Shown one piece after another: positions 1,481-55,883 of a stretch of 64,000 bases of DNA. Numbering within the stretch: the first letter of the stretch is position 1; each line of letters opens with the position of its first letter. The notes beneath the pieces were generated by a model that saw nothing but the letters and a program-made list of their open reading frames with translations, searched no databases and was not told the DNA's origin. The stretch comes from Polytrichum commune (lineage: Eukaryota; Streptophyta; Polytrichopsida; Polytrichales; Polytrichaceae), in the NCBI GenBank assembly GCA_950295325.1, contig OX485803.1, positions 73,175,554 through 73,239,553 of the forward strand, read 5' to 3'. A program made the position numbers and the translations under genes.

Positions 1481-1689
1481 GGCTTGAACTGAGGAGGCAT
1501 CCTTAAAGGGAAAAAATTACGGAGAAGGAGAAGGAGCGCGAGCGCGAGCGGCGGGGTGGGGCGGCGGGGGGCGAGGCGGCGGGGGCCGAGGCGACAAGTA
1601 GGTTTCGCTTGTTTTTGTTTTTTTTTTTGTTTTTTTTTTTGTTTTTGTTTTTGAAGCAAAATTGTTTCTGTTTGATTTCAGGTTCTATT

Positions 1690-23166: not shown

Positions 23167-23358
23167 CCTTTCCAAAAATATGATTATGGGTTGACAACGC
23201 CCTTTTGAAAACCTTGAGTCGTATTGGGAACCTTTGTAAGTTGTAGGTGTGTGAAACCTTAATTTGTATTGCCTTTGTAATAGATGACAATCTATAGCAC
23301 AATCTGAAAGATCAAAAGGCAATTTTCAATTCCTTGCCAAATCCTATTACAGTCTTGC

Positions 23359-33799: not shown

Positions 33800-35070
33800 A
33801 ACATTGCAATATATCATTCCGAGGTTAAGAGGTGTAATTAAATTGAGAACCGGTCTTAAGTTCAAAAGCGGGTGACTTGGTAGAATGATGTTGTAGGTAG
33901 GATTTCGGAATGATAGGATTTACCGGCGGTGGCCGTTACCTAACCACCTTCGGAATCTAGAAGGCCTAACCTTAAAGTTTTCTATTGGTTAGCTGGATAA
34001 GCCTTTAATCCAAACATTTCCTATTTCTAGCGGGATAAGGGTTCTAGAAGCCTTTAATACAAATGTCTCCTATTAGTTAGCCGCTTAGGGGTTCTAAAAG
34101 TCTTTACCTCAAAGGTATTCTATTGGCCGAAGGGGGCAAGGTGGAAGAGTATTTGAGGGGTGTTAGAAGGGTGTTGAGGTGAGAAATTAGCATTTGGAGT
34201 TGGTACTTGTGCATATTTGAAGGAACTTTGAGCATTTTAAGATAGATAAGCATTTAGGAAGCTCTACTATACTTGAGGGTGTAGGAATGAAAGTTTAGAA
34301 TAAATAAGTTGTACTAAGTGCTCTATTTGTATTGTTTCATTGGTTATTAAGTGAGCATAACTTTGGAGTGAAAATTTTTGTGAATTGTGGATGATTGGCG
34401 TGTTCAATTGATATGAAAATTTGAGAGAATGTTCCTTGTAAGATATTAGTGTTGAAGTAAAAATTTGGAAGCTTTAATCTTTTGGAAGAAAAAATTATAA
34501 AGAATTGAAGTGAAGGGTGGGTATAAGCATCATTGGGTGGCTCCACTATGAACCACCTAGGAAAATATTCAGGAAATGGAGGGTAGACGACGATTAATGT
34601 TTTTTTCATGTAATAAATAATTAGTATTTTACTTATTGGTTCTTTCCACTGACACAATCTTATCATCATCGCTGTCAAGGGGGAGAGTCCCGCCTATGTT
34701 GAGTAGTAAGGGGGTCTGTTTGAAAAAAGTCCTAAAGAACTCTTGGTCCCGCCGAAACTCAAATGACCATAATAGGATCTACATGTGGTCACCAACCAAA
34801 AATGACTGATAGGGTAGGGTTTTTTTGCGAGGAATGAGGCTCTCTGCTTGGGCGCAAGAGTTTGAGCAAGCGGCAACCATCAGGTTGTCCAATGAAGCAC
34901 ATTTTTTTTGTTTGTTTAGCGTTGTTTCCATAAATTCATTGTGTTTAGGGTTGGCTATGGCGAAACAGGTGTGTTTTGGCAATTTCACATTCAAAATGTT
35001 CATGTCTATCTACGCTTGGACCGGACGGTGATTTGTTCATCTCCTCTTATGCATCTTGTGTTCTCATTCC
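33800..35070. other. Repeat-rich stretch before the RING gene
   Basis: 33963-34130 is a degenerate tandem of about 50-bp units (cctttaatccaaacatttcc-type, three copies). 34300-34680 has LTR-like sequence but no ends I could prove. 34690-35070 may hold upstream exons or the promoter of the gene that follows; none is convincing. Confidence 0.4.
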
Positions 35071-35156
35071 AGGATGAATCCATTCTAGATCTCCACTATT
35101 TCATCAATGTTCAAGGTTTGAGAGGAGAAGGGAGGGAGGTGAAGTCTTTGCAAGAG

Positions 35157-36129
35157 TGTCGCGCACCTCTCCATGAGGAGTGCCCGAAACACCATGGGCA
35201 CAAGGGGGACCCCGGAGTGACACCCGGGACTTGTGGCGCCGTTGGTGAGAGGGCCCAAGTGATCCTAGTGTGGGTGAGGGCCCCGGGCGTTGGGAACGCC
35301 TCCCACCCACGAAGACTAGGAGGCACAAGGGTAAGGCCATGAGCTATGCGTAGCTCATGGCGTGGTGATTCTAGAAAGCTCAAGAACACCTCAATCGGAG
35401 GTGTGAGCTAGGAGTTATGGCCATTTGAGTGGGGCGCTGTCCCGGGACAGCGCCCTGGTACAGCAGTGCCTGGGAGTGATTCCCGGGACTGCCAAGGTTC
35501 AAACAGGCATAACTTCCTCAAGACTTGCCCGAATGGGGCAAGCGAGGAGTCCATCGGCATCTACGTGAAGCGTAGATGAAGATGGAGTGGTTGGTTGTTA
35601 TGATCAGACATCATACAAGGAAGTTATGATGGTCTGAAGCTGCTAGTGGGTTCTAGGCCCAGCAGCTAAAGGAAAATGTCCACTTGGCCCCAACTCTTGG
35701 TAGAGAGACAAGAGGTTGGTTGACGGTGGGGTAGGGGCCCCGCGTGAAGTCCTAGAGGCTTATATGGGTGAGGTGGTGTGGCCTCACCCACCCGAGGCCG
35801 AACGGCAAGGCCTCCATGGGCTTTGGCCTATTGTGAGGCCATAGTTGCCTAGTATGGTTCGGGTTGTTGTAGTGTTGCTCCGGCAACGCGATGATCAACA
35901 TAGGATTGGACTTCCATGGATGGAAGTCCACATTGGGGAAATGGGCTACCAATTAAGGGGTGAGTCCCGAAAGCAAAGTAGGAGGGTTGGTTCCCTCCTA
36001 TGAACTATTGGTCCGGGGTAAGAGGAGCTATCCATTAGCATGGCGGAATGCGAATGGTTAGCGCTCGTAACCTTTGCTAGAAACGAAAATTGGCAAGATG
36101 GTCAAGGGGGACTAGCAAGGGTTGCGACA
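35157..36129 (+). repeat. 5' LTR of the chromovirus
   Basis: 973 bp, tg...ca ends, indistinguishable by eye from the copy at 41010-41982. Confidence 0.95.
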
Positions 36130-36130
36130 C

Positions 36131-36149
36131 TTGGTATCAGAGCAGGGTT
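36131..36149 (+). promoter_or_regulatory. Primer-binding site (initiator tRNA-Met type)
   Basis: ttggtatcagagcagggtt begins two bases after the LTR and matches the tggtatcagagc core complementary to plant initiator tRNA-Met. Confidence 0.9.
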
Positions 36150-36779
36150 CCAAGTTTTGAGCTCGCACTTTGAGGGAAACATGGCTATCAAAAATGCGGG
36201 TTATGATGGTGAGCCCGGGGTTTCCAAAAGGTTGTGAGGCTCAAATTGGAACAAGGATCATGTGCAAGTGGAATTTGACCATACCATTGGTTCTAATGAC
36301 AATGGTGGGCATGAGGGTGGATTTGGTAAGGAAAATGGAGGAGTGCTTTGAAAAGGGCTCCCGCAAACCTCAAAAAAACATTTGGGGCCTAGAATACCGA
36401 ATGCACCCAAAACCTTGGAGGGTATTAATGTTGGATTGAAATTCAATTCGAGATGCTTCGAAGGTTCGGATGTTGAAATGAACTTGGTGCTAATTAGGCA
36501 CCCATGGCCTCTTAAGGCCTATGTGCGCTATTCAAACGCACAAATGAAGGATACACCTAAAACGGACGAGCTTTCTAAGAAATGCATCGTTTTAGGTGGG
36601 GTTTTAAAAGCGGGTGGTGGATGCCTTGTTTAAGTCCCCAAGGCTTCTTGAGGACATGGTGGGGACCATCAAGTTTGCAAGAGCATTGAAGCCGATGGTC
36701 CCAAAGAGAAGTTTGGTGGCGCATCACCACAAGTGGCTTTAGCCAAAGTAGGTCCCAAAGAAATGAGTGCAAATTGTTT

Positions 36780-37090
36780 GGTCCATTTTACTTAGGCAAA
36801 ACATGTTGGTGCCGCAGACGGAATGTTGAAAGGTGGCTTTATGCTTCCAAAGCAAATCATACTTGTGCCGCGGACGGAATGTTGGGAGGTGGGTTTGTCC
36901 TACCAAGGCAATTCATGTTCGTGCCGCGGATGGAGTGTGGGAAGGTGGCTTTGTGCTACCAAGGCAAAACATGTTTGTTTTGCGGACAAACTATTAGAAA
37001 TTGGTTTTGTGGCACCAAACCAATTTGTCCCGCGCACGAAATGTTTGAAGTTGGCTTTGCGGACCAAACCAAGTCAAGTTGCCGAGGACC
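36780..37090 (+). repeat. About 68-bp tandem repeats inside the chromovirus
   Basis: Four to five diverged units with the core gtgccgcggacggaatgttg and ccaaggcaaaacatg. Confidence 0.75.
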
Positions 37091-37929
37091 AAATGTAAGA
37101 CGATGGCATTGTGGCCAAGGCTAGTAGCCTTAAGCCGAGGCCAAGTCTTTTGTACCTTGAGGCTCAAATGAATGGGAGATATGTCTCATGAGTTGACAAA
37201 GAGGCAATGGACTCTTTCATGAGCCCAAAGCTCACAAGGGAGTTGGGGCTTGCCAATTGATAGAGCGGGCAAGCCCACCAAGGTGCGGTTTGGAAAGGGC
37301 GAACCGCATGAAACAAAGGAGGCCGCGATGCATGTAACCTTTCAATGTGGGACATTGGATTTTTGTCAAAATTTCACACCAAGTAAAATAGATGAAATGC
37401 ATGTCATTGTGAAGGCCGCCTTCTTTGAAACTCACATGATAGATGTGAGGTGCAAGCCGGGTGTTTGCAATGCATTATGATGTGTCATAATAGCAAAGAA
37501 TTGAAGTTCAAATTGACAAGGACTCCTATGGTAGGAGGACCCAAGTTGAATTTGGTCTTAATGGACCAAATGCAAAATATAAACATAATTGTCGTGGTTC
37601 AATTGGAGCAACTCCAAAGAACGTATGGGGAGGCGAGGAAAGATGGGCCTCCCCCAAATCACATTGGTGGGATGTTGGTGAGATACAAGGATGTATTCAC
37701 CAATGTGTTGCCCAAAAACATTACCGCCAAGGAGTGAAAAATAACTTTGCTCAACGAGAGATTGAGTTCTTGAGGTATGTGGTGACAAAGGACGTTGGTG
37801 GATGAACATGAAGAATGTCAAAGCAATCCAAAAGGAGAATTGGCCCTTCATTCAAAAAAATGCTTAGGTCATTTGTTGGCCTAGCCAACTACTACCACCA
37901 CTTCATTCAAGAGTTTTTGAAGGTTGCTA

Positions 37930-38400
37930 GGACCTTAATCAACTTATTGAGGAAAATGGCTATCCCAAGAGTGGGATGAGCCTTGTCACCAAGCCTTTGG
38001 GAAGCTTAAGACCAAGTTCTCTTCGCCGCCCGTGCTCAAGTTCGTGGAGTTGGCAAACCTTTGAGGTGCATACGGGGGCGGGTGACTTTACCATTGGCGG
38101 ATGTTAAGGCAAAATGGATGGCCATTGCATATAAGAGCATGAAGCTTGATGGTTGTTCAACCTTGTCCAACTTGTGCAAGAAATGGCTATCCCAACAGTG
38201 GGATGAGCCTTGCCACCAAGTCTTTGAGGAGCTTAAGACCAAGTTCTATTCGCCACCCGTGCTCAAGTTCGCGGAGCTTGACAAACCTTTTGAGGTGCAT
38301 ACGGGGGTGAATGACTTTGCCAATGGTGGATTTTGTGTAAGATGGATGGCCTTTGCATATGGGAGCATGAAGCTCGATGGTTGTCAAAGAAGACAACCAA
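37930..38400 (+). repeat. Direct duplication inside the chromovirus
   Basis: Two diverged copies of about 240 bp, each with gtgggatgagcctt, gcttaagaccaagttct and gaggtgcatacggggg. Confidence 0.75.
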
Positions 38401-40996
38401 CTCATGACAAAGAACTTCTTTGCCGTAGTGCATTGCTTGAAGATGTGGCGACATTATATGGGGTCGCACAAAGCAAAGGTCTACATGGACAATGTGTCCT
38501 AAAAGTATTTTGACATACAAGCATAAGTGAACGCCAAGTCATTGCGGAGGCATGATAGTTTGGCGCTTATGAAGGTGGATTTAATCCACAAACCGGACCG
38601 TGGAAATGTGGTGCCGGATGCGCGAAGTAGACCGGAAGAGTTCCAAGCAATGAGAACCATCCAAACCTTGTGGCTAATGTGTGCCGGCAAAGGAAACTTG
38701 TGATGCAAGATACGGGAGGGGTAAATTTACTACCCCAAAAGCACAAAAACTTTTAGGTGAGCTTCGCAAGAGCAAGGTGCTCAAAGAGGTTAAGTTGGTG
38801 GACGGATTGTTCAAGTGTAAACAAAGTCGGGTGTATGTGCCACAAGGCAAGTTGAGGCTATCGGTTTTGAAGGAAGAATGTGATAGTCCTATTGCCGGCC
38901 ATAGAGGAGAAAGAGAAAGCCGCCATAGAATGGTGTCAAGGGGGTACCATTGGCGGTGCATAAAGAAGGATATAGCCCACTTTGTGAAGGCTTGGATGAA
39001 GTGCCAAGTGAACCGAGCCTCTTACCAAAAGCAAGGCGGTTTCTTGCAACCGTTGCCTATCCCGTCGGCGCCATGGCATAGTATGTGCATGGACTTGATC
39101 ACAAGTTTGCCGGAGTCACATGGGTATGATGCCATCTTGTTGATGGTAGAGCAGTTTGCCAAGTTGGCACACATGGTGCCGATTGTGGGAACCGCCACCG
39201 CGTTGGAGACCGCATAGCCTTTTCTCAAAGGATGGTTGAGGCACCACGGGTTGCCAAGAGTGATTGTGAGGGATCAAGATCCAAAGTTCACAAGTGCATT
39301 TTCAATGCATTTCTCTAAGGAGGTCGGAATGAAACTAAGGTTTAGCACGGCCTTGCATTCCCAAATGGATGGGAAAGCGGAGCATGTGAATGGAGTCTTG
39401 AAGCAATACTTGAGGAACTTGGTGGGGGCGGACCAAGGAGATTGGGCGGACTATGTGGGTCGAGCGGAGTGTAATTGCAATGTAGCCACGCACTTGGCTA
39501 CCAAGGGGTGGTTTTTCGTGGTGGCTTATGGAGTGGATGCGCTCCAACCTATTAACCTAGCTCTCGAGGGGGCACATTCAACACTAGAGTTCAACCAAGA
39601 TGGTAAGGACTTGGCCAAGGAGCAAAAACAAGTCTTGGAGATGACCAAGTTGTTGGTGGAGAAAGCCCGAAGGTGCTACGGAGTGCAAATCAATGCCGGA
39701 AGACGCGAAGTGGAGTATGAGGTGGGCCAATAAGGTGTTGTTGAATGTGGACAACTTCACCTTGCCCAAAGGCCTTACTCCAAAAGTTCATGTCCAAAAT
39801 TGGAGCTTCGTTTTCCATTGTGGAACAAGTGTTCAAGGACATGTATAAGTTGGAATTACCGCCGGAGATCAAAGTGCATCCGACATTTCATGTCTCATTA
39901 CGAAAGTCATTTTAGGACGACACCTTGTGGCCCGATCACAAGCAAGTGATTAGGCCACCTCCCGACCTTGTGGAGGTCATTTGGAACATGAGGTAAGAGG
40001 GCATCCTCAAGTGTAGGAAGCCCAAGTGAAAATGAAAGAAAATGTACAAAGGAGTACTTGGTGAAATGGTGAGGATACCATGAGAAACAAACCGCTTGGG
40101 TGGCGGCAAGAGACATGGTGAACACCAATGAATTGGTGAAGCACTTTGAAGAAACTAAGGCTAAGGATTCCAATAAAATGAAGCGGAGGCATTGATGAGG
40201 ACATCAATCTCCTTTAGTGGGGGAGAGACGCTAGTAGCACACTTAGCTTCGAGGTTAATTGCTCCACAACATGAACTTGTTCTTTGGCTTGAGGGAATAA
40301 AGTCCAAACTTTAGTGGTGCAAAGAGAAAAGTATGAGATGAGGTCCTAGTCTTGTACTTGTGCTTGGTTAATGGAAGAGGGGGAATAGATATGCCAAACT
40401 AGGTTGGGTAAGCCGAGTAATTGGGGGCCATGGCTTGGAGGGGCCTTGGATAAAACCAAGAAACTTCTTAGTTGTGGGCTTGTCCGGGCGGGGGCAAGGT
40501 GATGGCGCGTGCTCATAAAAGTGCTACCCGCGAGCTAACGAGAGTTGGCGCATGGGAGTCATGAACCCATGTCTCGAAAGAGCAAAGTGGGAACCGAGTC
40601 GGGCGGGACTTGGCATCACCCCCGTGCGATCGAGGCGTGGCTTAACAATGGAAAGCCATCTCGGAGTTGCAACCGAGACAACTTAGTGGAAGCGTTGAGG
40701 TCTCGCCTAGATGTGTCACGTTAGGCTAGTGGAGCCTAACGGGGGAGGCCCCAAAGGAGGGGCAACCCAAGTGAGTCCTAAAGTAGGTGGGTCTAGTATA
40801 GGTTAGGTCCTTGGATGAGAGATCCAAGGTCGCTAACGGACCACCTAGGAACGACACCTTTGGGACTATGCCAAATTTGAAGATGCATTGTGGGGGTCGC
40901 GCCCTAAGGTAAACACAATGCCGCACCATAGAGGATGGCAACTTGAGAATTGGTGTGCCGACTACGAGTATAGTCGATGAGGGCATCGACTCCGTT

Positions 40997-41009
40997 TGGT
41001 GGGGGTGAG
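40997..41009 (+). promoter_or_regulatory. Polypurine tract of the chromovirus
   Basis: tggtgggggtgag lies immediately before the 3' LTR, where plus-strand priming is expected. Confidence 0.7.
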
Positions 41010-41982
41010 TGTCGCGCACCTCTCCATGAGGAGTGCCCGAAACACCATGGGCACAAGGGGGACCCCGGAGTGACACCCGGGACTTGTGGCGCCGTTGGTG
41101 AGAGGGCCCAAGTGATCCTAGTGTGGGTGAGGGCCCCGGGCGTTGGGAACGCCTCCCACCCACGAAGACTAGGAGGCACAAGGGTAAGGCCATGAGCTAT
41201 GCGTAGCTCATGGCGTGGTGATTCTAGAAAGCTCAAGAACACCTCAATCGGAGGTGTGAGCTAGGAGTTATGGCCATTTGAGTGGGGCGCTGTCCCGGGA
41301 CAGCGCCCTGGTACAGCAGTGCCTGGGAGTGATTCCCGGGACTGCCAAGGTTCAAACAGGCATAACTTCCTCAAGACTTGCCCGAATGGGGCAAGCGAGG
41401 AGTCCATCGGCATCTACGTGAAGCGTAGATGAAGATGGAGTGGTTGGTTGTTATGATCAGACATCATACAAGGAAGTTATGATGGTCTGAAGCTGCTAGT
41501 GGGTTCTAGGCCCAGCAGCTAAAGGAAAATGTCCACTTGGCCCCAACTCTTGGTAGAGAGACAAGAGGTTGGTTGACGGTGGGGTAGGGGCCCCGCGTGA
41601 AGTCCTAGAGGCTTATATGGGTGAGGTGGTGTGGCCTCACCCACCCGAGGCCGAACGGCAAGGCCTCCATGGGCTTTGGCCTATTGTGAGGCCATAGTTG
41701 CCTAGTATGGTTCGGGTTGTTGTAGTGTTGCTCCGGCAACGCGATGATCAACATAGGATTGGACTTCCATGGATGGAAGTCCACATTGGGGAAATGGGCT
41801 ACCAATTAAGGGGTGAGTCCCGAAAGCAAAGTAGGAGGGTTGGTTCCCTCCTATGAACTATTGGTCCGGGGTAAGAGGAGCTATCCATTAGCATGGCGGA
41901 ATGCGAATGGTTAGCGCTCGTAACCTTTGCTAGAAACGAAAATTGGCAAGATGGTCAAGGGGGACTAGCAAGGGTTGCGACA
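41010..41982 (+). repeat. 3' LTR of the chromovirus
   Basis: 973 bp and followed directly by the aagag duplication. Confidence 0.95.
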
Positions 41983-44900
41983 AAGAGGGTGACGTTTCTA
42001 ATGACGAAATTTGTGAGATTTTCGGACCTCGGAAGGATAAGAATGGCTGGAAGGTCAATGAGAAGCCAAGTAGGGAGTTCCAAGAATCAGTGGTGAATTT
42101 GTACTCCTGAGTGATCCTCAGAGATCAAGTCCTCAATGACCAATTGACCTTGGAGTGGGCACGAGCCATTGTGGCAGAGAACAAGGGCATCCCTGTGAAT
42201 TGGGCATCATTTGCCGTACACCTACACAAAAAACGTTTGTCCTTGGAGAATGTCAAGAAGGCTAAGAAACTTGCCAAGGAAGGCACCAGTTCCGATTCCC
42301 TTAATGTGGCATCCAGATCATGGCCAGAGCTTGGTATCCAACCTCCAGGGAGTTCCATTGCCCAACTTCCTGTTTGTGCTGTAGGAGTTGTTTCTCAACA
42401 TCTTTCCCCTGCCCAAAAACCTCAATCTAGTGGTTCTATCCTAGGACCTGATAGAAAGGGTAGTTTTCGTACACCTGTGAGTCGATCTCTTTTGTTGCGT
42501 GCAAGTAAAGGGAAGGTTGAAACTGGGGTGTCAATTAAGCGCAATAACCTAAGTGTCTTAAATCCAAGGGTGAAGGCGATGATGGCCTCAAATCCACCAA
42601 AGCGTGGAACAGAGGACATCATTAGTAGACTTCATGAGTTGCTTCTATCAAAGCAGAAATCATTGTTACAGTCAAAAGAACGGCTTCGTGCTACTAGTGA
42701 CACTAAATCTAATTTTGAGATGGACTTCAAGAGGGCAAAACTCATGCTGGATGTTCTTAAAGGTCTCCATATTGATGCTGAATGTGAACTGTCTAGAGCT
42801 CGTGTTGCTTTGCAAGATGCTATTTCCTTTGAGTCTAATCCCATTCCTACCCCTGATGCATCTGTTGTGGTGGAAGAAAATGGGGAGGGATTTTCATCAG
42901 TTAATGCACACATAGAAAACTCTGTTGCTCAATTGCAACAAAGATTGCGCTGTGAAGAGCGCAATGTCCAGTCATCTCTGTCTAAACTTTCCGCAGCTGA
43001 GAAAGATTTTGTTCTCAAACAAAATGAACTTTCCAGTAGTGAAGAGGCATATGGGGAGGAAATTCAACATCAAGTTGTCGTAGAAAAGATGTTGACCCTC
43101 ATAGCAGACTATTTGTCTAAGTTGAAGGGTGGCATTTTATTAACCACCCACCCTGAACCTATTAGTAGGGCTGATAGGACTAAGTCCCAATGTGTTCAAG
43201 TGAATGTTGAAGACTGTATTTTTTGCAAAGAAAGTTTTCATGTCAATGATATATGTGTATCCTCATGCGGTCACTGCTACCACCCTTGGTGCCTTGGTAT
43301 GCACATTAGCTCTTCCAACAAATGCAAGTTACAATCATGTCAACAAGAATTTGATTTACAATGGCGATTGTCATTTGGATTTGTAATTCCAAAAACTGGC
43401 CAGCATCAACTCCCCTCTGCAGCTATGTCTGGTGAGTCCAAACCCTAATTGATTATTTGCCTATAATTTTAGTTCTTTACATTGTTTTTATGGCATTTTG
43501 TGTAGAAGATATAAGACATGAGGTCAGAATATGTTAGCATCATGCTAAGTTACCCCTAGCAAATGTTTGTATGTACCTTTGCTGCATATACAAACTTAGA
43601 TGAAAAACAATTTGAGTTTTGGATGTCCACCTGGTGCATCATACATAGGTATGTTACACCTTGCTATTTGGATTTGATTCATTTAATTTTTGTACACATG
43701 TAGAATGAGTCCTACATTCCTCTCCCTTGGGCCATGAATATCTACCCAGCTCCACACATTCTAGCAACCTATTCCACAATGTTGTTATTTACTGTGGAAT
43801 GGGTGTTCACATTGAATGTGGGGACTAATAGGAAGCACTAAAAAATTTCCCTAGTCCCCTACCCCACCAGGATTTGTTGTACTTACAAATCCTCCAGTAT
43901 GGATAACTAGGATTGCAATTCCTTCCCCCAGACACCTAATAAATTGCCTTCATTTGCAATGTTCCAATTTTTAGGATCCAGGACAAAAATACTAGGCCCA
44001 CTGCAATGCCAGGAACTCTGTAAATACCATTAATACCATTTTCTAGAGTCAGGATCCAACTTCCTGACTCACATGCTTAGTACTCTACCCCTTTGCTTCC
44101 ATTCCTACCCCCATTGTCATCCAGGACCCAATTTCCTATTGTCATTCCTATCAACATATCAATTTTTTTTCCATTCCTGCCATTTTATTGAATCAGGACA
44201 CAATTTCCTAGGGTCCTTGCGTACTTGGAAGCTATCTAATATCAATAGGAATATTTTTTGGATACAAGAAGTGATTTCCTGGTCCATTTGGATACCATGA
44301 CTCTTTGGTATTAATTCCTAGTTTGTTTTTGGACCAGTATATGTTAGTTCATTCCTGATTCCTAATTTAAGTCCTTATTCTTGCTTGTAGATGTCCATTC
44401 AGACTTTGGAGCTTCCACCACTATTTTCCAACACTTGGGCGACACAAACTCAACAATACCTGAGCCATCCTGCTCTTTGAGGACTCACACATCAGCAAGT
44501 CAAGACAACTTTGTTCCAAGAAGTGGTGCATGCGCGGAAGAATATGCCGAGGTGGCCTCAAAGAAATGCCATCAACCAGCGATTTCACAGAAATCATCAT
44601 TGGTGGAAGCTGAGGATGGAAATTTCCCAGGGTTAGACACAACAAGCTTTCAATGCATTATTTGCTTTGAGAAATGCAAACCCATGGCTACATTGGAGGT
44701 GAGTGTTTAGGCATAAATATATGTCATTGTACAAAATCATATATGTTTTGTTTCAGTTGATACAAAATCATCAATGTTGGATTATAGGGCCATATGGTGG
44801 TCTCTAGATTTTTTTATTAATACTCCTTTGCATGGGTTGTGATGCAGCCATGTGGTCATACTTGTGTTTGCACGACGTGTGCAAAAGACCTACTTTTGTG

Positions 44901-45274
44901 TCCAACTTGCTATGACCTCATTTCAGGATCAATGCGTGCTAACCCGAAACCAAAAAGTACTATGGTGGGTCTAGGGAATGCTTTCAATGCAAGTGTGCAA
45001 CCGGTGGTTAGGAGAACCATTAGATTTCCAACCAATAAACGCGCAAAAATTGTTAGTCAAGGACGTAGTGGGATGGAAATCCATGGATTCAAAGAGCCAG
45101 ATTTTGATTTTGACTCTGATGAATCTAATTCTGAAGATGATTTGGCTAGATTGGAAACCCCTACTGGTTCTTTGCAAAACAGACCTAAAAGAACATCTTG
45201 TGGTAGTGGGAATAGTGTACTTTTGGGACTAAATGATACGTACACTGATAGTAGTGATGACGATGAGGAGAGAG

Positions 45275-46351
45275 TGTCACCAAAAAGCCTCCACCCTTCA
45301 ATTTCGTCCTAGCCCGAATGGAGAAGTTTATAATGACAATGTAGAAATTTCTCTCTTTGTAACACAATGTACGATTCTAATCTATCGTTGGAATATACGC
45401 AACTTAGCCAAGTCTATACTATGTCTTCTTACACTCCTTAATCTCGAAGTTTGGAAGTTTGGAAGTTTGGACATAGTCTCGGTTTTTTGGCTCTCAAAAA
45501 TTCATATGAAGTCCAAAAAATGAGTTCTTGGTATCCATGTATAGGTAATGAAGTCCTCTACATGAATATGCAATAATATTTCTACTACCACAAAGTATAT
45601 GGTCGCAATTCTACGCTGTTCCCTTTGAACCTACACTTTTTCACTAGTTTTTGGAAGTTTGGACATAGTCTCGGTTTTTTGGCTCTCAAAAATTCATATG
45701 AAGTCCAACAAAACTAAATGCTCCAATAAGAGACTTTGCACATCCGCATAAGTATAAGGCTAATCAATGTAAATCCAAATATCCAAACAAAGACATAAAT
45801 TAAATTTTAAATCATTCACGCCCAACTATTACTAACAAGAGGTCAAACCCTCTTCAAGGCCAACTAGCCTTGGCTCCTAACCTTACATCCATGCACACAC
45901 ACGTACTCCTATCTTGCTTCCCACGCACCCACACTTATAACACGTGGAGTGCCAAGGAGCACGAAGGAAAGAGAGGATGAGTGAGGGAAGAATGAGGGAT
46001 TATATAGTGAGTTCGAGGGGGTGAGCATCCTCAAGGCTCACGATAAGCCCTCGAGATTTCCTCCTACTTTGTAGGTTCTTATCCTATCTCCTAAGCCTTC
46101 CTCCCTCAAATGATCAACAAGGATCCTAATTCAAACATTTAACTAACCTTGGCTTTCTACCTACCACACTTTACCAAGGTTTGTCCTTCTCCTATTTAAA
46201 TCCACTCCACAAAAGCCTAATGCTTCAAACTAAGCTTTCTTCAAGCTTCACTCTTTTTATATTTTTGTGAATAATCATAAATCACCAAAACACCACTTGT
46301 AATGTTTTACAAGTGTTAACAACCAATGTGGGCATCAATTTTGGGCTCACA
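45275..46351 (-). mobile_element. Solo LTR (1077 bp) in the RING gene's last exon
   Basis: Minus-strand copy starting tgtgagcccaaaattgatg and ending ttggtgaca, with a perfect target duplication gagag at 45270-45274 and 46352-46356. It is shorter than its relative at 21177-23166 but shares both ends with it. Confidence 0.92.
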
Positions 46352-46781
46352 GAGAGGTTGTCCTAGTGATCCCAAACCAATCCAGCATACAAACTACACT
46401 AGCAGTTGTTTGGAAGACAAGGTGGAGAAGAATACAGATTCCTTAGATTCAAAGGAGAAGGTCCCTAACTCATCCTTGGATGTTCATCCTCTTCCAGCCT
46501 GCACCTATGTAGATATTCAGTCTGAGTCTACGCAAATTGTTGAATCACATGAATACATCCCTCATATGAAAAGGAAAAACCCTACAATGCCAGGTAATTT
46601 TGCTAAAAGAGTGACTAGAACTGAGGGTCCAGCTGAGGACCCTTCTGCCTTCCTAAGTAAACATGGGGGCCAAAAACCAGTTGCCAACAAAGAGGTTATG
46701 AAGTTGTTGGCTGGCAGTCCTTCTAAGTCTGCCTCCGTTCGTCATGACAATAGGTCCAGACGAAGTGGGAGGGGCAAGTGA

Positions 46782-47390
46782 TGATTAGAGGGTTAGGCTT
46801 TCACATAGCATTATGGAATAAAAATTGAATGTTCATTGCCTTCGTTATTTGAGTGAATTGATGTTTACTCATTGTATATCGAGTGATTTTGCATCAATTG
46901 TCATCTATTTATAACACGTACAACATAAGTACATGTAGTCCTAGGTGTTCAAATGTAACATTCAGGGTTAATGATTACGTAGTTAGTTGTTTTATTTGAT
47001 TGTCAATGATTACGACAAGGTTTAGGCTACTTGGGAAATGACTACACATGGAAATCATACATGTGGACCATCCTCATGATTTCAGTTCCTTATTGGCACA
47101 AATGATTTAAATTGACACATGTCCTAGTACTTCTAATGTTTTCATGCAGCTTCTAGAGGCTCCCATCCAATCTAAGAATGCAAGTTGGGCATACATGCTG
47201 GTACACTTCCCACTCCTCTCTCTACTCTTACCCACAACAGCCATGTTACATTAGCTGCATTTTGAATCTGCTCATAGCTTTGTCTTACTCCTCTCTTTTC
47301 TAAGCTACCACACCATATTCTGAGGCCAGGTGTTGAGGAAGTGTTGCACTGGTGTAGGGATTGGGTTTAGATTTGTTGTAGAAGATTGCT
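46782..47390. other. Spacer between the two plus-strand cargo genes
   Basis: Holds the 3' flank of the RING gene and presumably the promoter of the next gene. No specific motif stands out. Confidence 0.4.
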
Positions 47391-49055
47391 ATGGAGGGGA
47401 GCTGGAGGTGGTTTCGAGACGTTGTGGGACTTCCAGCGAAGGGGTTGCTTCCTTCTCCTAACATCGGGAAACGCTATGCCTCTAAGAAGGAGTGTGAGAA
47501 AATGCGGGGAAAGCGCAAGAGCAACAATGGCTTTCGCTACACTAGCCATGACGATGAAGCATTGAAGACTAGGATTGAGACCCTGATTCGCAAAGTGTAC
47601 CAGCGCAAGCAGACAATCAATTCGGACATCACCCTTGGATTTGCACTAGGAGTTCTTGCAGAGCGCAAAGGATTTAGCATAAATTGGGCTAAATTTGCTG
47701 AAGGTGTGCATAGGAGGAAGGGAAGCTTCTCACCACTTCCTGAGTACAAAAATGCCACTTCTAGCCAAGATGGAGAGGAAGAGGATGATGAGGAAGATTA
47801 TGATGATGAAGAGGAGGACACTGAAGATGAGGATGAGGACTTTGAGGTTGAGGAAGAGGGGGACCAGGGTGAGGAGGATCAGGATGACAAGGAAGAAGAG
47901 GATCAGGAAGAGAAGGAAGAGGAAATGGAGGGAGAGAAAGAAGATGCAGCTAAGGCACATGACATTGGGTTGCAGGAAGGTGCTTTCAATCAAAAAAATG
48001 ACCAGATTGGGGATGATGCACTTGTTACAGATCTTCCAACAATGAATGATCAGCAAGTTATTGAAAAGGCCCTTGTGCAACCTGAACCTGTTATTCTAGG
48101 TGGCCCTGATGCGGATCAATTTCAATCACCTAGGCAGGGAGTAATGTCTAAAGATGCTCCTACAGATTGCATTGGAGAGGACCAATTGGGTGCAGAAGTC
48201 CTTGGTCAGAGTCCCTTTGCTGACAAAGTGACAACAAATTTTGAGTTGAACATGCCTCAAGACAAAGAGAAGCTTGTGGGAGATACACATAGTGATGCTA
48301 TGAACCAATCACATGCTGTGCCAATCATTGATGAATTGGCCACCCCACCCCTTCCAAATGAAGGTTTGCAAATGCCACCCACACTACCAACAGAAATTGA
48401 TGACAATGGCCTACTTGTCTTGGAGAGGGCAGTGAGGCTGAAGGAAGTGAGATTGAGAGAGGAGCAAGTGAAATTCAAGAGAGAGCTCTTGCAGTTCAGA
48501 ATTGGACAGTTGGCATTGAAAAGAAAATTTCTGCAAGTAGGATCCACTGCTGGTGTAGTGGAAGAGGAGAGAGGTGTCCATATGGGTGAGGGATCAAAGA
48601 TTGCTAAATTTAGCTTGGCCACTCAATTAAAAGACATTAATGCACTTGTTTTGAAGAAAAGACAAACTGTGAAGGAGTGTACAGAAGTGTTGGAAGGCAT
48701 GCAACAAAATTTAATTGGACTGCTCTACAAAATGAACAATGCGGAAGGCCGTCTTCATGATGCCAAGGTCCAAGTCATAGGTTTAGAAGCCATTGATGGA
48801 ATCGATGTGCACAAGTTTGGATTAGCAGAAGTGCAGGATTCAATTCTTGAATTAGAGAAAATCTGCCATGAAATTGGGGAAGTTAGGTGCAAACTTAAAA
48901 CAAAGGTTGAGCACCACAAAAGTGAATTGGCAAAGCTCCATCACTATGAAGATTGCCTTCTTCGATTGAAGCAGAAAACAAGTGTACAAATGGAAGTCCA
49001 ACAAGGTTCTTCCTTAACCTTTCTCTTTACAGATTTGCATTGTTCTTGCTGGTAG
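47391..49055 (+). CDS. Acidic coiled-coil protein, paralogue of the RING gene's N-terminus
   Basis: An intact open frame of 554 codons from the ATG at 47391. Residues about 45-108 (GFRYTSHDDEALKTRI ... TLGFALGVLAERKGFSINW) align without gaps to the RING gene's N-terminal domain. Residues about 122-185 are almost entirely Glu/Asp (EEEDDEEDYDDEEEDTEDED and similar). Residues about 335-545 are coiled coil (LERAVRLKEVRLREEQVKFK, then KLKTKVEHHKSEL). The frame probably leaves by splicing near VQMEVQQ/gttctt or slightly later, so the last residues may not be real. The function is unknown; the acidic tract suggests binding to basic proteins such as histones (inference). Confidence 0.75.
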   Translation: MEGSWRWFRDVVGLPAKGLLPSPNIGKRYASKKECEKMRGKRKSNNGFRYTSHDDEALKTRIETLIRKVYQRKQTINSDITLGFALGVLAERKGFSINWAKFAEGVHRRKGSFSPLPEYKNATSSQDGEEEDDEEDYDDEEEDTEDEDEDFEVEEEGDQGEEDQDDKEEEDQEEKEEEMEGEKEDAAKAHDIGLQEGAFNQKNDQIGDDALVTDLPTMNDQQVIEKALVQPEPVILGGPDADQFQSPRQGVMSKDAPTDCIGEDQLGAEVLGQSPFADKVTTNFELNMPQDKEKLVGDTHSDAMNQSHAVPIIDELATPPLPNEGLQMPPTLPTEIDDNGLLVLERAVRLKEVRLREEQVKFKRELLQFRIGQLALKRKFLQVGSTAGVVEEERGVHMGEGSKIAKFSLATQLKDINALVLKKRQTVKECTEVLEGMQQNLIGLLYKMNNAEGRLHDAKVQVIGLEAIDGIDVHKFGLAEVQDSILELEKICHEIGEVRCKLKTKVEHHKSELAKLHHYEDCLLRLKQKTSVQMEVQQGSSLTFLFTDLHCSCW

Positions 49056-49939
49056 GTGTTTGGGTTTATCTACATTGAGTATCCAGGTTGTCTTATGTCT
49101 TTAGTTTTCTGCATACACAAAAAGACTTACAGATGTACATGGCCTTTTGGAATTGCCTAGGTGTGCAATCTGGATGAGCTGAACACATTCAATTGCTCTT
49201 GAGCCCAACACACTCTAAAAAGGTAAGTTTCAATGGCATTCACCTTGCGTTTTTTTGGGTTTATATTTCATTTACCATGTCTTATTGTGGATTTAGACAT
49301 TGTTGGCTCCTTGTTTCCAATGCTGAGTTGTTGGAATTGACACTATGTTTGTTGGTCTGACACTCAGGAGGTCATTAGCTTCACCCTTGCAACAACAAAG
49401 CACAATCCAGCATGTACACATAGGAAGTAGATGGTATCAGGTGGTTTTTGGATGGAAAAATTTTGTGACTATTTTTTTGAGTGGTAATCCACCTACTAGT
49501 ACTTCTATTTTAGATGAAGGAATATTTATGATATACCAGCAACAGGCAATGTCTCCAGATATGTATAGACCTTTGAAATGTGACAATACCATATAGACTG
49601 TGTGAACATTTTCTTCTCCCTTGTGTTGTTGTATACGTCATCCACCCTACAACCTATTAGTAGATACTAACTGATATGGCCTAATTCAAGAATGGAATGA
49701 ACACATGTATGGTCATTTTGGTTTGTACTGGAATTTATAGGATTGAGTGTTGTGTATAGTGTTGAGGGCTCCAATCTTGCTGATGTTGAAACAAATGTTT
49801 TGGAGGAATTATACATGTATGAGGTTGTCATTTCCCTCTCGCTTGTTAAAGCCATAAGCTACAATGTTGCTTGACAAGACAAATGTATATGTCTAATTAC
49901 CTATGCTTTAAACATGTATGTTGTTTGTCAAAGGGCTGA

Positions 49940-50404
49940 AGCTTGACTTTGGAAGATGTTCTGGCTATGTATCCTAGACATAATAGAATATGTTTACTTA
50001 TGAGTATTAAAAGAGCAGTAGCCTTGCACACTGACCAACCACTGCTTGGGAACTTGTACATAATATTGGTGAAGTTCCGGAGGTCCGTTGGAGGAAGTTT
50101 TCCATTTCTCCACAACAGTATTGAATTTGAGCCTGTAGAATGGTTGGCCATCCCTCCAGGTCAACCCCAACACAAAACCAGAACCACCCTTTTCACTTTT
50201 CATTCCAGGTCAACCCCAACACATACTGTAGTTTTGAATACTTCAGATTCTTTTCTAACATTGACGACCTAGTCTTTGTCTTATAGGATTCCGCTATCTG
50301 ACCAACCTGTGAACATGAAGAAATTTGATGTAATGGAACTTGAAATTGATGAATGGATGGCCTTTCTTACCAATCTTCAGCTTAGTGTTAACATGAAACC
50401 TTAA
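49940..50404 (+). CDS. Exon pair of an unidentified small protein or 3' end of the preceding gene
   Basis: Exon about 49943-50208 (SIKRAVALHTDQPLLGNLYI, FEPVEWLAIPPGQPQ) splices in phase to 50287-50404 (IPLSDQPVNMKKFDVMEL, EIDEWMAFLTNLQ) with stop TAA at 50402. A 19-bp duplication (ccaggtcaaccccaacaca at 50157 and 50206) creates two donors; only the second keeps frame. A possible exon at 49367-49594 lies between it and the acidic protein. No family recognised. Confidence 0.45.
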
Positions 50405-51273
50405 TTAATCGCACATGGAACATGAACGAGTACCACAAGCCAATATAGTCTAAATTATAAGCTATTTTATGGAGATTCCTTAGCAACGGCGAGATTTTGA
50501 GCCCAATCATCATGTGGATGCTTCCTTGGAACTCATCTTTAGCATGTCCACTCAATGCTTGCTCAAACGACACGGAGCTTGAGGGTTGAATTAATTCTTA
50601 AATAGTTTTAAAATAAGGGGTGTACAATGTAAGCCAAACAATCAATGGGAAGCATGCTTCAGTAGATATATTTATGCTTAAGGGCAGTGCATGTTTGATG
50701 ATTTTCTTATGGAATACACAGATTCTTCAAATTTGGCTCAATGTGATTTCAAATACTATGGTAGCTATTGTGAATGTTCTCATCAAAGTGAACCAAAACC
50801 CAAGCCCATGTGCACCCGAAACGAACATATACAAAATACATTCAACCCTTTTAGAACAAATTATGTTGCATCCTGGATACCAATAGACAGGGATGGTATG
50901 GAAATAAGAGGGCACCCTTTTTGAAACTGGAATGCATTTACATTCATATATAAAGTGACCCCAGCTGGGTCTTCACCCTAAACCACATCCACAATAAAAA
51001 AATGGATGTCCACAATTAACTCACATTGACTGCCACAACACAATAGGAATGAGAAGGGGCACATCAAATTGTTAAACCAAATACATAGCAGATTGTAGGC
51101 TAATGACATGATTTGCATTTGGGACCAAAAATCCACCAGTGGGATGGTGGCACACTTAAATGTGGTAATATATTTGGTACAAGAGGAGGCACTAGTGCAC
51201 TCACTCTCTGGATCATCTATTTGACCAGTACACATCACCCTAGCTAGCAACTCCACGATGTTAGATGATTGTC
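50405..51273. other. Convergent 3' region
   Basis: AT-rich DNA between the plus-strand genes and the end of the minus-strand transposase. A 99-codon minus open stretch (50978-51277) overlaps the transposase 3' end in another frame and is probably 3' UTR. Confidence 0.4.
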
Positions 51274-54200
51274 TCAAGTTGCACTGAGCCTGGCTTCTAT
51301 GAGTTCATGAGCAGCTGCAGGGAGAGTGTACACCTAACCAACACCCACAAATAATAATTAGGATAAAACCTTTAATGCCCCACAACATCATGGTCACCAC
51401 AACAAGGAGTTGGAGGAGGTTTTGCATAACAGCCCATCCTCTTATCCCATCGAGCTAAAATGTTGTGTGCAAACAATCACATGGCATTATATTGGAAACT
51501 AAAGCACGCATGTATCATATAATTCCCTTTTGCCTAACAAAACTACCTTAAAGAACTTGCTATTCAAAAAAATTTGAAGATGTGCATACAAAATGAAGTG
51601 GGGCTTGTATATATTGTATGTACCTGTGTCCCCTCCCTCCCACCTTTTTGTCGATGCCGAGCCGGCAACATTGCAAACTTTGCAGCAATTACCAAATGGG
51701 AGTAGATATAAGCAGGATCAGCATCGCACAAAACATAAGATCTCATACTCCTTCCTTTTTGCTTATAATACCTGCCTACCACAATTTGCTCTCCCTTGTA
51801 CACCTTTTGGCCCCAACAATCTTCTTTGGATTCCTCCTCAACTGCATGAAGAGTCTCTTCAGTAATTAAGATCCAAAAATTTGCATCCTCAGAGTTTCCC
51901 TCGTCAGCAACAACCGCAAAATGATCCCCAACCTCCAAGCTAGCAGCTATCGCCTCCCTGTCACCCTCCCCAATGACATCAACATGTTCCACATCTGCGC
52001 GAACGTCATCTATGTTGCAAGGCTCGATCCTAATAAGTTTATAAGGCTCCACATAGTCAGCATTATCACAAGGGCCATCACCTCCATCTTGACAAAAGCT
52101 ACAGAAACATGATAGGGTCCGGACCTGCAAGGAAATCATATCCAATCCTACACTACGAACCTGGTGAAATGATCTAGTTCCCTCCACTATGCGGGCATTA
52201 AATTGATCTACACGCACAACATCAGTGCTAGCCACCTCATAAAAAAATCGCTTCACATCCCTACGAACATTGGTATACCCAGCGTATTGCCGACCCATAT
52301 ATTGCCTAAGGTAAGCAACTGCATCACTCGCATTGTGAAGCCTAATACCATCAGGTTTCACCTGCTCTGCTCGCAGAGCTTGTTTGATTGTTGCTCCTGC
52401 CCCATCCCAACGTCCCTTTCCGTGCCCAGAGCCGAAGTGATTCCATTGCATAGCACACCCATTGGGTAGGTCTGGACTTCTGGTTAGCGCAGGATAGCGG
52501 GTCACAAAAAAAAGGGACCTTGCGCACTTGAATTGAGAAGAGCATCCATCAGAGAAGACTATGTGCTCCACTGGTAGTGCATGGCTAGACTCCCTCAAAA
52601 AAACCCAATGCAAACCAAAACAATATTGCACAAATAGATTGTCATGGGTTTTGTCATCACTCACATAGAAGTGATATTCAGTAAGTATTTTGGACCTGAC
52701 ATCCACTTCATCCCAGCCAGGATCAATTCGAAAGGTAATGTGCACTAGTATTGTCACCTGGAATGACTGCCAATGTTGGGATTGCACCTCGTTTTGCCAT
52801 TGAAAGGAATAGTTTTCAGCAAAGTCAATGACTGATAGGATTTGGTCACTTGACAAGTTTTCAAGGCAGGATTTAAATTGGCGATCTTGCCATTTTGCCT
52901 CAAAATTGTGTACCACAAACTCTGCAAGCTTGGGTTTAAGGAAGGATATGAATTCAGAAGGAGTAGTGGTCTTGTGCTCCAATCTGAGAGCATGGCGATC
53001 ACCACCTTCAGAATTTTGGCCTACAAAAACATTCTCAAACTTCCTCCAAGGAATTAGTGTTGTGGAATTGGGGTCCACCTCATGAGGACACAATTCCAAT
53101 CTCCAGACACCACAATCATGACAATTTCCTCTTATGCACTCAATCTTGTGAAATTCCATGGACTCCAGTTTTGGACAAAACACCAAATCGCACAGGGCTC
53201 TTACACCTTCAACTGTAGATGAAGAAGCCCAACACGGTGTGTCGGGAGTACGTGCACCACACACAACACAATTACAGCTACATGATTGATGCAAGATTCG
53301 TCGTCTCATGTTGTTGAACCCATCTTTCAATTCTGCAATCTGCACATGATAGCGGCAGCAACAAGAATTGAAGTCCTGCAACCTCTTCACATACCAGGGC
53401 TTCAATGTCTCAAACATGCGCAATCCAACTTCCACATTTGGATTTTCCTCTTTGAATCGAGTGTACAAAGAAAGCTGCAAAAATATAGGACATTTCAAAA
53501 ATATTAATGGATGTTCACATTACACAAAACATTTGTGAATTTAGTAACTAGAATATGAAATACATAAATGTAGAGTAAGAATCAGGACTAGGGTGTGTTA
53601 TCTGGAAATCTAGCATTCAGGAACTTGACTGAACAGGAAAGAGGTGATACTTCAGGAAATCCTGCGGATCATCAGGAAACCTACATACAAAAAATTGGAA
53701 TCATTAGGAACAATGTAAATCCTCAGGAACCATAGATAAAAGAAATAGGAATCTTTAGGAATGAGGCTAATCATCAGGAATCATAGAAATGAAGCGTAGG
53801 AATGATAATAGACTCCTAAAACATCCACAACCTCTACATGAACAATATCACAGGAAAAGGATATATGAACTCTAGTACAGGATTGGATTAAAGGCTTGGG
53901 AACCATATTAGAGGCTTAAGGAAAATACAATATACACAGGAAGCACCAGGAAATTATCTAAACTTTGCAAAGATTTCCAAAGACTAAGACAGTAGGAAGA
54001 TCCAAATAAAAGTGTTCCAAGATTGAGGGTACCTCCTCAGGAAGCCTATAAATCATGATGAACCTTAAGGATTAAATTGCGAATGGATTAGAACCCCAGG
54101 AACCGCATTAAAACATGGCAAGACCTTGAATATCACAGTAGAACACAATGTAATGTAGGAAAAATGCAAGGAAACTTTTGATGAACTGAAAACATTCCAT

Positions 54201-55409
54201 AATAATTCTTAATTTATTTAACAAGAAGGACCACATCATGATATAGAGAACCCTACTAATAGACTCGAAAAAATCAAGGACCCTTAAAAATCAGCGTAGG
54301 AGTGAGGTAAAGTCCAACAAACCCTTTGCGACATCCTAAAATCAGCCCAAACAATAGGAGCTACATGTGTGTGAAGGGGGAAACAATAATTTAGCAAGGG
54401 TGCACACAATGAACATCCAAGGGCACTGGACCATAGCAAACCATAGAACCCGAAATGAACACAAGCCTTGTCAAGAATGAAAAAAAATTAGAAAACACTC
54501 AAAATAGAGATCCTAGGGGAGTGTTGTCATTTTGAGCCTAACAAAACGTAAACCAAGAATGACAAAACTCCCTGAAATTTCCAATTGCCCTTAACATTGT
54601 GCATGTTCCATTATATTAACATTCCAATGAATATAGAAGAGGGCCATGGTAAGGTGTACCTGAGATTCCATGAGGTGGTGGGTTGCATGCGTCTCCCACA
54701 TTCCACTGTCGATTTGTTTCCTCACAACATCCTTTCTATTAGGACTTACCCTTGAATTTAGGCACCAGAATTCAACAATGAGCTCACAAACACTTGAAGG
54801 CGTGGCATCTATACGCTTTGATTTTCCACAAAGAGCCCACAAAGACCGATCTACACGGGCTTCTAAACTCAACCGCCTCACTATCCCAACATGGAAATTC
54901 CTCCTATGGATGCCAGTGAGGAGGCTTGTCTGCCTCATATTTGTATTCCTACTGGCAACCATAGGAATGATAACATTCCTAGCCCTTTGGTCATCCTTGG
55001 AGTGACAACCTTTGATTTGTTGCCACCCCCTAGCAATATTCCCTACAGTTTCCCAAGCATGTTCCATTTCAGAGTAGTTGGGGAGGACATTTTGCCAAAC
55101 AACATGTTTCAATATTTTGGGAATCAATGACCTTTGATATTGTAGACCCCTTCCAGCTGTTTCTTGATACCATTGAAGGGCAAAATTCTCTGCCATCCTA
55201 GTTGTTGACCTCTCCACATCAATGTTGCTATCCTCAGACACTTGGGAGTCTAGTTCCTCGCATAGAGCTCTCAGATTTTCAGACCTTCTCTGTCTACACT
55301 GTCTTTGCCGTTCATTTTGAGCCTGTCTATTCTGAGACACTTCTAATTCTCTAGCAAGACGCTCTCGTGTACCTTGACCTGGCATTTTTCTATTCCGTTG
55401 GTTTGCCAT
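51274..55409 (-). CDS. DDE-like transposase, three exons, 886 aa, intact
   Basis: Minus-strand exons 55409-54660 (250 codons), 53474-51624 (617 codons) and 51333-51274 (19 codons plus TGA). All junctions are gt/ag in phase 0, with no internal stop. Exon 1: basic bZIP-like N-terminus (about 10-52), then a helix-turn-helix-like region (about 157-190) and SRVSPNRKDVVRKQI. Exon 2: FKEENPNVEVGLRMFETLKP, a Cys-rich block (CSCNCVVCGA ... CIRGNCHDCG), then VIDFAENYSFQWQNEVQSQH, SDDKTHD, EHIVFSDGCSSQFK and NHFGSGHGKGRWDGAGATIK. The aspartates of DFAENY, FSDG and GRWDGAG are candidate catalytic acids of an RNase-H fold. A C-terminal beta-rich domain (about 520-610 of exon 2) is unassigned. I know this motif set from uncharacterised repeated proteins in animals and early land plants, and infer a cut-and-paste DNA transposase. 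Confidence 0.82.
53475..54659 (-). other. Intron 1 of the transposase gene
   Basis: 1185 bp with donor CAG/gtacac and acceptor tttgcag. It is rich in aggaa/ttcct words (e.g. atcaggaac), as is the RING gene's intron at 43432-44390, suggesting shared element-specific intron composition. Confidence 0.7.
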
Positions 55410-55433
55410 CTAATTGGAGATCAATGACTAACC

Positions 55434-55883
55434 CTATAACATGCATGTCTCACTAACACGACTCAAAGAGCAACCTGATGTAAATGACAAAGGAGGAGAA
55501 CTTTTTGAGGTTGCAAACCCATGGATACTCTGAGAAGACGAGGAAGAAATAGAAGGTGCCGATGAGCCAGTGCATTCGCAAGATGAGACACTCTCGGATG
55601 AGACTCCCTCTTCATGCCTTAAATTTGAACCCTTGAAGAAATCTGTAATGAGTGTCTGGGAGTGTTTTACACCCAAAACCTGCCTCGGTCTCTCAAAACC
55701 CATTACAACCCACTTCAGTCTAATGCTACACTTCTTGGCACTACCCACTGTGTTGGAGCTTCCGACCTTCAAACCACCATAGCCAGCAAGTGAAATGCGG
55801 CAAACATCACTTAGGAACTTTAGAAAATCGGCGGCAAAACATTCTCTCAGCAAAGTAGGTCCATGAATTTTCGCTAACTCCAT
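55434..55883 (-). CDS. 149-aa protein with PIP-box-like motif
   Basis: Open frame from ATG 55883 to TAG 55434, ending 24 nt before the transposase ATG in the same orientation. The N-terminus looks folded (FAADFLKFLSDVCRISLAGY, IRLKWVVMGFERPRQVLGVK). Then comes QTLITDFF at residues 76-83, a consensus PCNA-interacting (PIP) motif Q-x-x-I-x-x-F-F with a following lysine. The rest is a Ser-rich tail (SSAPSISSSSSQS). It may be a separate ORF, or an upstream exon spliced to the transposase. A PCNA link would couple the element to replication or gap repair (inference). Confidence 0.6.
   Translation of the reverse strand: MELAKIHGPTLLRECFAADFLKFLSDVCRISLAGYGGLKVGSSNTVGSAKKCSIRLKWVVMGFERPRQVLGVKHSQTLITDFFKGSNLRHEEGVSSESVSSCECTGSSAPSISSSSSQSIHGFATSKSSPPLSFTSGCSLSRVSETCML

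Follow-up and report, generated by a model that had tools for sequence, protein, structure and literature searches.

A mobile multi-gene unit in Polytrichum commune with a candidate DDD transposase and a facing RING/coiled-coil gene

A 64,000-nucleotide stretch of the Polytrichum commune genome (contig OX485803.1, positions 73,175,554 to 73,239,553; hereafter the window) carries a transposase gene on its minus strand that faces two plus-strand genes, one coding for a RING-finger protein (the RING gene, or gene A) and one, gene B, for a protein with the same N-terminal domain. The locus raises two questions: do these genes move together as a single DNA transposon, and what would a RING protein contribute to its transposition? 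The cluster is a single mobile unit with terminal repeats of ~35 bp and 4-bp target duplications. Furthermore, the transposase gene converges on a RING/coiled-coil gene across families, with a second gene for the N-terminal domain in the window family and in the family ~49% identical to it. On balance, we think it probable that the unit is a large cut-and-paste DNA transposon of Sola-like anatomy in which several proteins act together. The RING partner is probably part of this transposition machinery, because most of the related loci examined have it opposite the transposase.

Ends, gene order and recurrence of the mobile unit

Genomic copies of the element at separate sites are similar up to one common base and diverge beyond it; similarity between the window and the C6 copy, for example, breaks off at 34519. 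Such copy edges, which the original prediction had proposed as the means to define termini and duplication, gave the terminal repeats. The window element spans positions 34519–58731 (Table 1), ~24 kb with its inserts and ~14 kb minus the later insertions. It is thus longer than the 35071–55883 first proposed, and the terminal repeats and target duplication that had been reported as not found are both located (35-bp imperfect repeats, GGGT duplication). Among family copies, the transposase-side end starts with GGG[A/T][A/G]GAAGCAT and the RING-side end with GGGTGTAAGCATCC or a near variant, and the two form an imperfect inverted repeat of ~35 bp with 23–32 of 35 positions identical (13 loci). 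Three of the 16 loci examined were missing an end in the stretch covered (C7:27.27, C6:40.8 and C7:27.4). Of the 13 for which both ends are available, 12 have an exact 4-bp duplication at their borders, and the thirteenth is the rearranged locus C7:39.4. The C4 copy is complete (13,785 bp, duplication ATAA) and the C6 copy measures 14,457 bp (duplication AGAT). Movement was recent, because a pair of copies located on separate contigs shows 99.7% identity across 2,660 bp.

The searches covered 407.8 Mb in 64 contigs, the seven large ones being 42–78 Mb long. Candidate matches were scored for the transposase (69 of 147), the RING gene (95 of 111) and gene B (78 of 108), so the counts are lower bounds. 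A search with the small open reading frame (ORF) ahead of the transposase gave 17 matches, two of them within one locus, and these are the 16 family loci. All four parts (small ORF, transposase, gene B and RING gene) were present in 14, which confirms that the clustering described for the window recurs. The arrangement was the same in 13: the small ORF and then the transposase on one strand, converging on gene B and then the RING gene on the other. For this count, each part was entered once per locus, with entries picked and merged by eye, and a rule separated two neighboring C7 loci. Canonical loci were found on all seven large contigs; in two of these loci, later insertions have presumably pulled the parts apart, over 46 and 149 kb. 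The exceptions are C7:39.4, which is rearranged and has no gene B, C4:41.19, where gene B is inverted, and C5:0.52, which has no match to transposase exon 2. The RING gene and gene B therefore keep their order at other copies, as the original prediction had proposed to check, and the recurring order, terminal repeats and 4-bp duplications together strongly support its idea of one mobile multi-gene unit.

The pairing of transposase and RING gene extends beyond this family. The transposase matches listed number at least 77, of which 17 are 86–100% and 60 are 31–49% identical to the query. Once merged, 77 transposase and 82 RING-gene matches corresponded to 63 and 71 loci, respectively. A RING-gene match on the facing strand was found within 45 kb at 52 of the 63 transposase loci (within 15 kb at 45), and random placement on the same contigs (1000 times) gave a mean of 0.29 paired loci and a maximum of 3. 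RING-gene relatives also face transposases ~40% identical to that of the window, which makes the RING gene a more general companion than the original prediction supposed. RING genes are common in plants, and at some RING loci no transposase lies within range or within the sequence fetched, as might be seen if these were separate or host genes that lie side by side by chance or were captured once by the window copy. Yet order and strands are the same at the 13 canonical loci, all parts are enclosed by terminal repeats with target duplications, and the pairing holds in diverged families; we consider such an origin extremely improbable. Chance clustering in particular is ruled out by the recurring order and by the 52 paired loci set against the random mean.

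Two distant elements illustrate the pairing. The element at C3:30635013–30643520 (8,508 bp; C3:30.6) has a 17-bp perfect terminal repeat and the duplication ATAA, and that at C6:10563749–10572336 (8,588 bp; C6:10.6) has a 26-bp perfect terminal repeat and the duplication ATAG. The transposase and RING gene converge in each, and neither a separate gene B nor an ORF with a PCNA-interacting protein (PIP) box ahead of the transposase was seen in these two elements. An element of a 49%-identity family, C2:6263922–6277256 (L063/L064; 13,335 bp), has matches to the transposase, RING gene and gene B. No relative was found among viral contigs searched with one protein and with an alignment. The search of genome contigs gave one degenerate transposase relative, 32% identical (L069, positions 4405–5424), on a contig labeled as a metagenome-assembled genome of Trichormus. 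The contig ends within the match and is probably eukaryotic contamination, because its other long ORFs look by eye like those of a long interspersed nuclear element (LINE). Such cyanobacteria live with a host fern, perhaps the source of the contamination.

Transposase, RING gene and gene B

The intact minus-strand transposase first described as facing two plus-strand genes is present in the window. Both exons are open (872 amino acids in the spliced model), and a short third exon starting at 51314 is possible. The aspartates of the three motifs (D1, D2 and D3) are kept in 13, 15 and 14, respectively, of 16 loci scanned, 8 of them close copies. In the structure predicted for the transposase, a low-confidence model, the order of strands and helices fits an RNase H-type arrangement. 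Pfam gave no match at E ≤ 1 for the window exon 2 or five relatives, and neither did a PDB sequence search with exon 2 at the same threshold. From the motifs and the model we infer a candidate DDD enzyme with an RNase H-type active site at D219, D309 and D357.

In the window copy of the RING gene, an in-frame stop (42108–42110) and two insertions (35157–41982 and 45275–46351) disrupt the coding sequence, and a further first exon may lie upstream of those modeled. The frame resumes across the empty site of the first insertion, as far as the stop, and across that of the second in the last exon. Intact copies exist, because the C4 copy is open where the window has the stop. The ubiquitin ligase of the original prediction remains a putative one. 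The spliced exons encode a canonical C3HC4 RING that passes the Pfam cut-off (zf-C3HC4_3, PF13920; 32.3 bits, cut-off 27), and locus L061 on C7 has a tblastn match to it (37.5% identity over 56 columns, E 1.7e-5). However, the RING-H2-like finger that the sampled families have in common falls below its own cut-off. The zinc ligands of this finger are conserved in a six-row alignment, except for one that is shifted in L051. The 50 matches listed by a Foldseek search with the model of the RING protein look coiled-coil or helical, none of them at E ≤ 0.001. Within the reading of a multi-protein transposon, ubiquitin-ligase (E3) activity of the protein is likely.

Gene B is an open frame whose long C-terminal part resembles a coiled coil by eye. 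Its protein matches the RING-gene loci of the family, that of the window included, at E values of 1.2e-8 to 1.7e-7, which bears out the earlier claim that the two plus-strand genes have the same N-terminal domain.

Both the transposase and the RING exon are under purifying selection. The ratio of nonsynonymous to synonymous substitution rates (dN/dS) was computed only for pairs with at least 8 changes, from 10 of the 16 loci for the small ORF and transposase exon 1, 8 for exon 2, 9 for the RING exon and 2 for gene B. Between sub-families it was 0.16–0.18 for transposase exon 2 and 0.21–0.32 for the RING exon. Transposase exon 1 gave 0.15–0.57 in the pairs listed, and gene B 0.39 against the C4 copy (one pair).

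These data suggest how a multi-protein transposon might operate. The DDD transposase would cut at the GGG ends and insert the element with a 4-bp stagger. Coiled coils could hold the RING protein and protein B together, and the N-terminal domain common to both may bind the end regions of the element or the transposase. The RING would then recruit a ubiquitin-conjugating (E2) enzyme, and the complex would mark a target. One candidate is the transposase, whose marking would time the transposition complex or take it apart; the other is a repressor of the host.

Several observations weigh against this model. The transposase structure has a mean predicted local distance difference test (pLDDT) score of 51.6 and no Foldseek match at E ≤ 0.001, and in one divergent open copy (L068) an asparagine replaces the first aspartate. 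The finger shared by the families scores 11.2–20.7 bits against zf-RING_2 in four proteins (cut-off 27.3), and its last ligand pair is C-x4-C rather than C-x2-C. At 11 of the 63 transposase loci no RING gene lies on the facing strand within 45 kb, and 19 of the 71 RING loci are unpaired. Two loci, L061 (C7:457001–467000; RING gene and gene B) and L062 (C4:55505001–55513000; RING gene), have no transposase in the fetched stretch and are candidates for decayed elements or for domesticated genes. In a single case, C2:6.27, the duplication reads TATGAG, 6 bp rather than 4. Finally, stops interrupt transposase exon 2 and gene B in the two copies nearest to that of the window (C6:6.2 and C7:27.27), and near-identical RING pairs give a dN/dS of ~1.2 on 15–18 changes, which indicates decay or relaxed constraint in some copies.

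The RING protein and protein B could instead be anti-silencing or host-manipulating factors that degrade or displace a host repressor outside the cutting complex. VANC proteins, for example, are anti-silencing factors of the VANDAL Mutator elements. Evolution is faster in gene B than in the transposase: in four copies from other sub-families, with near full-length matches, it is 67–74% identical where transposase exon 2 is 90–94% identical. This, the combination of a RING with acidic and basic regions in one protein, and the distant C3:30.6 and C6:10.6 elements, in which no separate gene B was seen, all fit a host-directed role. However, the layout of N-terminal domain, coiled coil and RING-like finger persists at 41–44% transposase identity, which a fixed role with the transposase explains at least equally well. 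We regard the anti-silencing alternative as rather unlikely and favor a role for the RING protein as a transposition cofactor, because even families whose transposases have diverged strongly retain the pairing.

The separate RING protein has stayed with the transposase as the transposases diverged to ~40% identity. The pair offers a direct route to ask if ubiquitination controls DNA transposition or host silencing. A laboratory assay is feasible, because the ends and duplications are known and several copies are nearly identical and have open frames.

The small ORF and other features of the window

The small ORF with a PIP-box motif that the original prediction placed ahead of the transposase was confirmed (55883–55437, motif QTLITDFF); its designation as a PCNA-binding factor was not supported. 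Such a protein would steer transposition to replicating DNA. Consistent with it, passages of a study of PIP boxes give a consensus, Qxx[ILM]xxF[FY], that QTLITDFF fits, and describe PIP boxes in pogo and LINE-1 proteins (PMC5371812). The motif is identical in 14 of the 16 loci, and the frame is open in the motif-keeping loci among those aligned. The dN/dS of the ORF ranges from 0.41 to 1.27, the nearest sub-families giving 0.41–0.65. Against distant loci (L019–L021), however, it rises to 0.85–1.27 where transposase exon 1 holds 0.15–0.35, and the N-terminal part of the ORF diverges in the same loci. Variable sites, counted in 9 of 12 aligned loci, are spread evenly over codon positions 1, 2 and 3 (33/33/33), though the test is weak because the transposase control (first 133 codons, 21/13/21) also lacks a third-position excess. 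Furthermore, three other families showed no comparable ORF in front of the transposase, and motifs of the PIP class also appear elsewhere in six-frame scans of these elements. The DNA of the motif is nearly invariant, with one synonymous difference common to three of 10 loci, so DNA-level constraint, a leader function or recent descent explain its conservation equally well. A PCNA-binding role is accordingly improbable.

Three nested LTR-type (long terminal repeat) insertions, each flanked by a 5-bp duplication, interrupt the element. We take the one at 35157–41982 to be of the Gypsy type, from the order of its parts as read by eye. The one at 55929–58062 sits between the small ORF and the transposase-side end.

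Table 1. Features of the mobile unit and of its nested insertions, in window coordinates.
Feature	Position	Strand	Details
Target-site duplication, RING-gene side	34515..34518		GGGT on +, matches 58732-58735 (ACCC from the other strand)
Terminal inverted repeat, RING-gene end	34519..34553	+	GGGTATAAGCATCATTGGGTGGCTCCACTATGAAC; 29/35 identical to opposite end
RING gene, exon with N-terminal domain, coiled coil and RING-H2-like finger	35073..43431	+	Splice motifs 35067, 43422; layout after C4-copy model
Nested LTR retrotransposon	35157..41982	+	LTRs 35157-36129 and 41010-41982, 100% identical; duplication AAGAG
RING gene, middle exon	44391..44698	+	First half of canonical C3HC4 RING; splice motifs 44381, 44692
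RING gene, last exon	44848..46781	+	Second C3HC4 half, acidic stretch, basic C-terminus; splice motif 44841
Nested LTR-type insert, solo LTR by form	45275..46351		Duplication GAGAG
Gene B	47391..49052	+	554-aa open frame; N-terminal domain in common with RING gene, acidic stretch
Transposase exon 2	51624..53474	-	Candidate triad D219, D309, D357 (exon-2 protein numbering)
Transposase exon 1	54660..55409	-	250 aa; tblastn matches in both distant families
Small ORF, PIP-box-like motif QTLITDFF	55437..55883	-	Recurs in family; possibly a leader or an upstream ORF
Nested LTR-type insert, solo LTR by form	55929..58062		Same family as 45275-46351; duplication TGCTC
Terminal inverted repeat, transposase end	58697..58731	-	GGGTGGAAGCATCCTTGGGTGGATCCTCTAGGAAC
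Target-site duplication, transposase side	58732..58735		GGGT on +

Three copies of one LTR family lie in the window, at 21177–23167 (reverse), 45275–46351 and 55929–58062, in pieces 67–94% identical. Two of these copies lie inside the transposon, and that at 55929–58062 holds a 17/46/63-bp tandem array (56624–56859). Within the region of the remaining copy, at 21913–22554, a 313-bp unit is tandemly duplicated with 96% matches. Elsewhere in the window we identified a broken hAT-type element (1507–3922, plus strand), with a PF25431 zinc finger, DUF4371 (under its cut-off) and a hAT dimerization domain in separate frames. The C-terminal part of a PTR2/POT-family transporter gene, probably a host gene, lies at 13961–14848 on the plus strand (173 bits). 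Rfam and tRNA scans of the window found none.

Comparison with known systems

Autonomous En/Spm, Mutator and Harbinger elements encode a transposase and a second protein, as does the window element. To our knowledge, their partner proteins are not RING proteins, and their terminal repeats and duplication lengths differ from those described here. Transib elements make target duplications of 5 bp, unlike the 4 bp read at 12 of 13 loci in the window family.

Sola elements are described as having 4-bp duplications, terminal repeats of 11–1124 bp and sizes of 2–9 kb, some exceeding 15 kb, and are reported in a moss (PMC10741241). The Sola2 elements of amoebae are described with an 888-amino-acid transposase, terminal repeats of 12–13 bp or 21 bp (imperfect), 4-bp duplications and an extra gene, Fanzor1 (PMC3627910). 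The window family resembles Sola in its 4-bp duplication and in a repeat length and size within the Sola range, and its candidate DDD transposase would suit the DDD enzyme with an RNase H fold expected of a Sola element. The element is thus Sola-like in its anatomy. It differs from the Sola passages found in the converging RING/coiled-coil partner gene and, in the window family, the second gene with the N-terminal domain. Furthermore, its duplications are of mixed composition, unlike the AT-rich ones given for Sola2, and one related element reads 6 bp.

The PIP-box motif is a further likeness, to pogo/Tigger transposases and LINE-1 ORF2p, though in the passages describing these the motif lies within the enzyme (PMC5371812). 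In the window it lies in a separate small ORF with no clear coding signature.

A partnership of this kind is also described for the RAG transposons. A 2015 paper describes a transposase and a separate partner in one transposon, RAG1L and the Kelch-PHD protein RAG2L, for TransibSU and the hypothetical TransibVDJ/RAG transposon; RAG1 and two subgroups of Chapaev have a RING finger fused to the transposase, which TransibSU lacks (PMC4411706). The same paper knew RING fingers in transposable elements only as transposase fusions, in Chapaevs (PMC4411706). A literature search for a transposon-encoded separate RING partner turned up none in the passages retrieved, though one may still be in print. 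Like TransibSU and the hypothetical TransibVDJ/RAG transposon, the window element pairs its transposase with a separate partner protein; unlike RAG1 and the Chapaevs, it carries the RING on that separate protein. It is conceivable, and we suggest it tentatively, that these families make up a lineage of eukaryotic DNA transposons, or even a new superfamily, whose DDD transposase has a stand-alone RING/coiled-coil protein as its fixed partner. Such a two-component recombinase, its ubiquitin-ligase part separated from the enzyme, would be parallel to and independent of RAG1/RAG2, and one branch would have gained gene B as a paralogous second partner.

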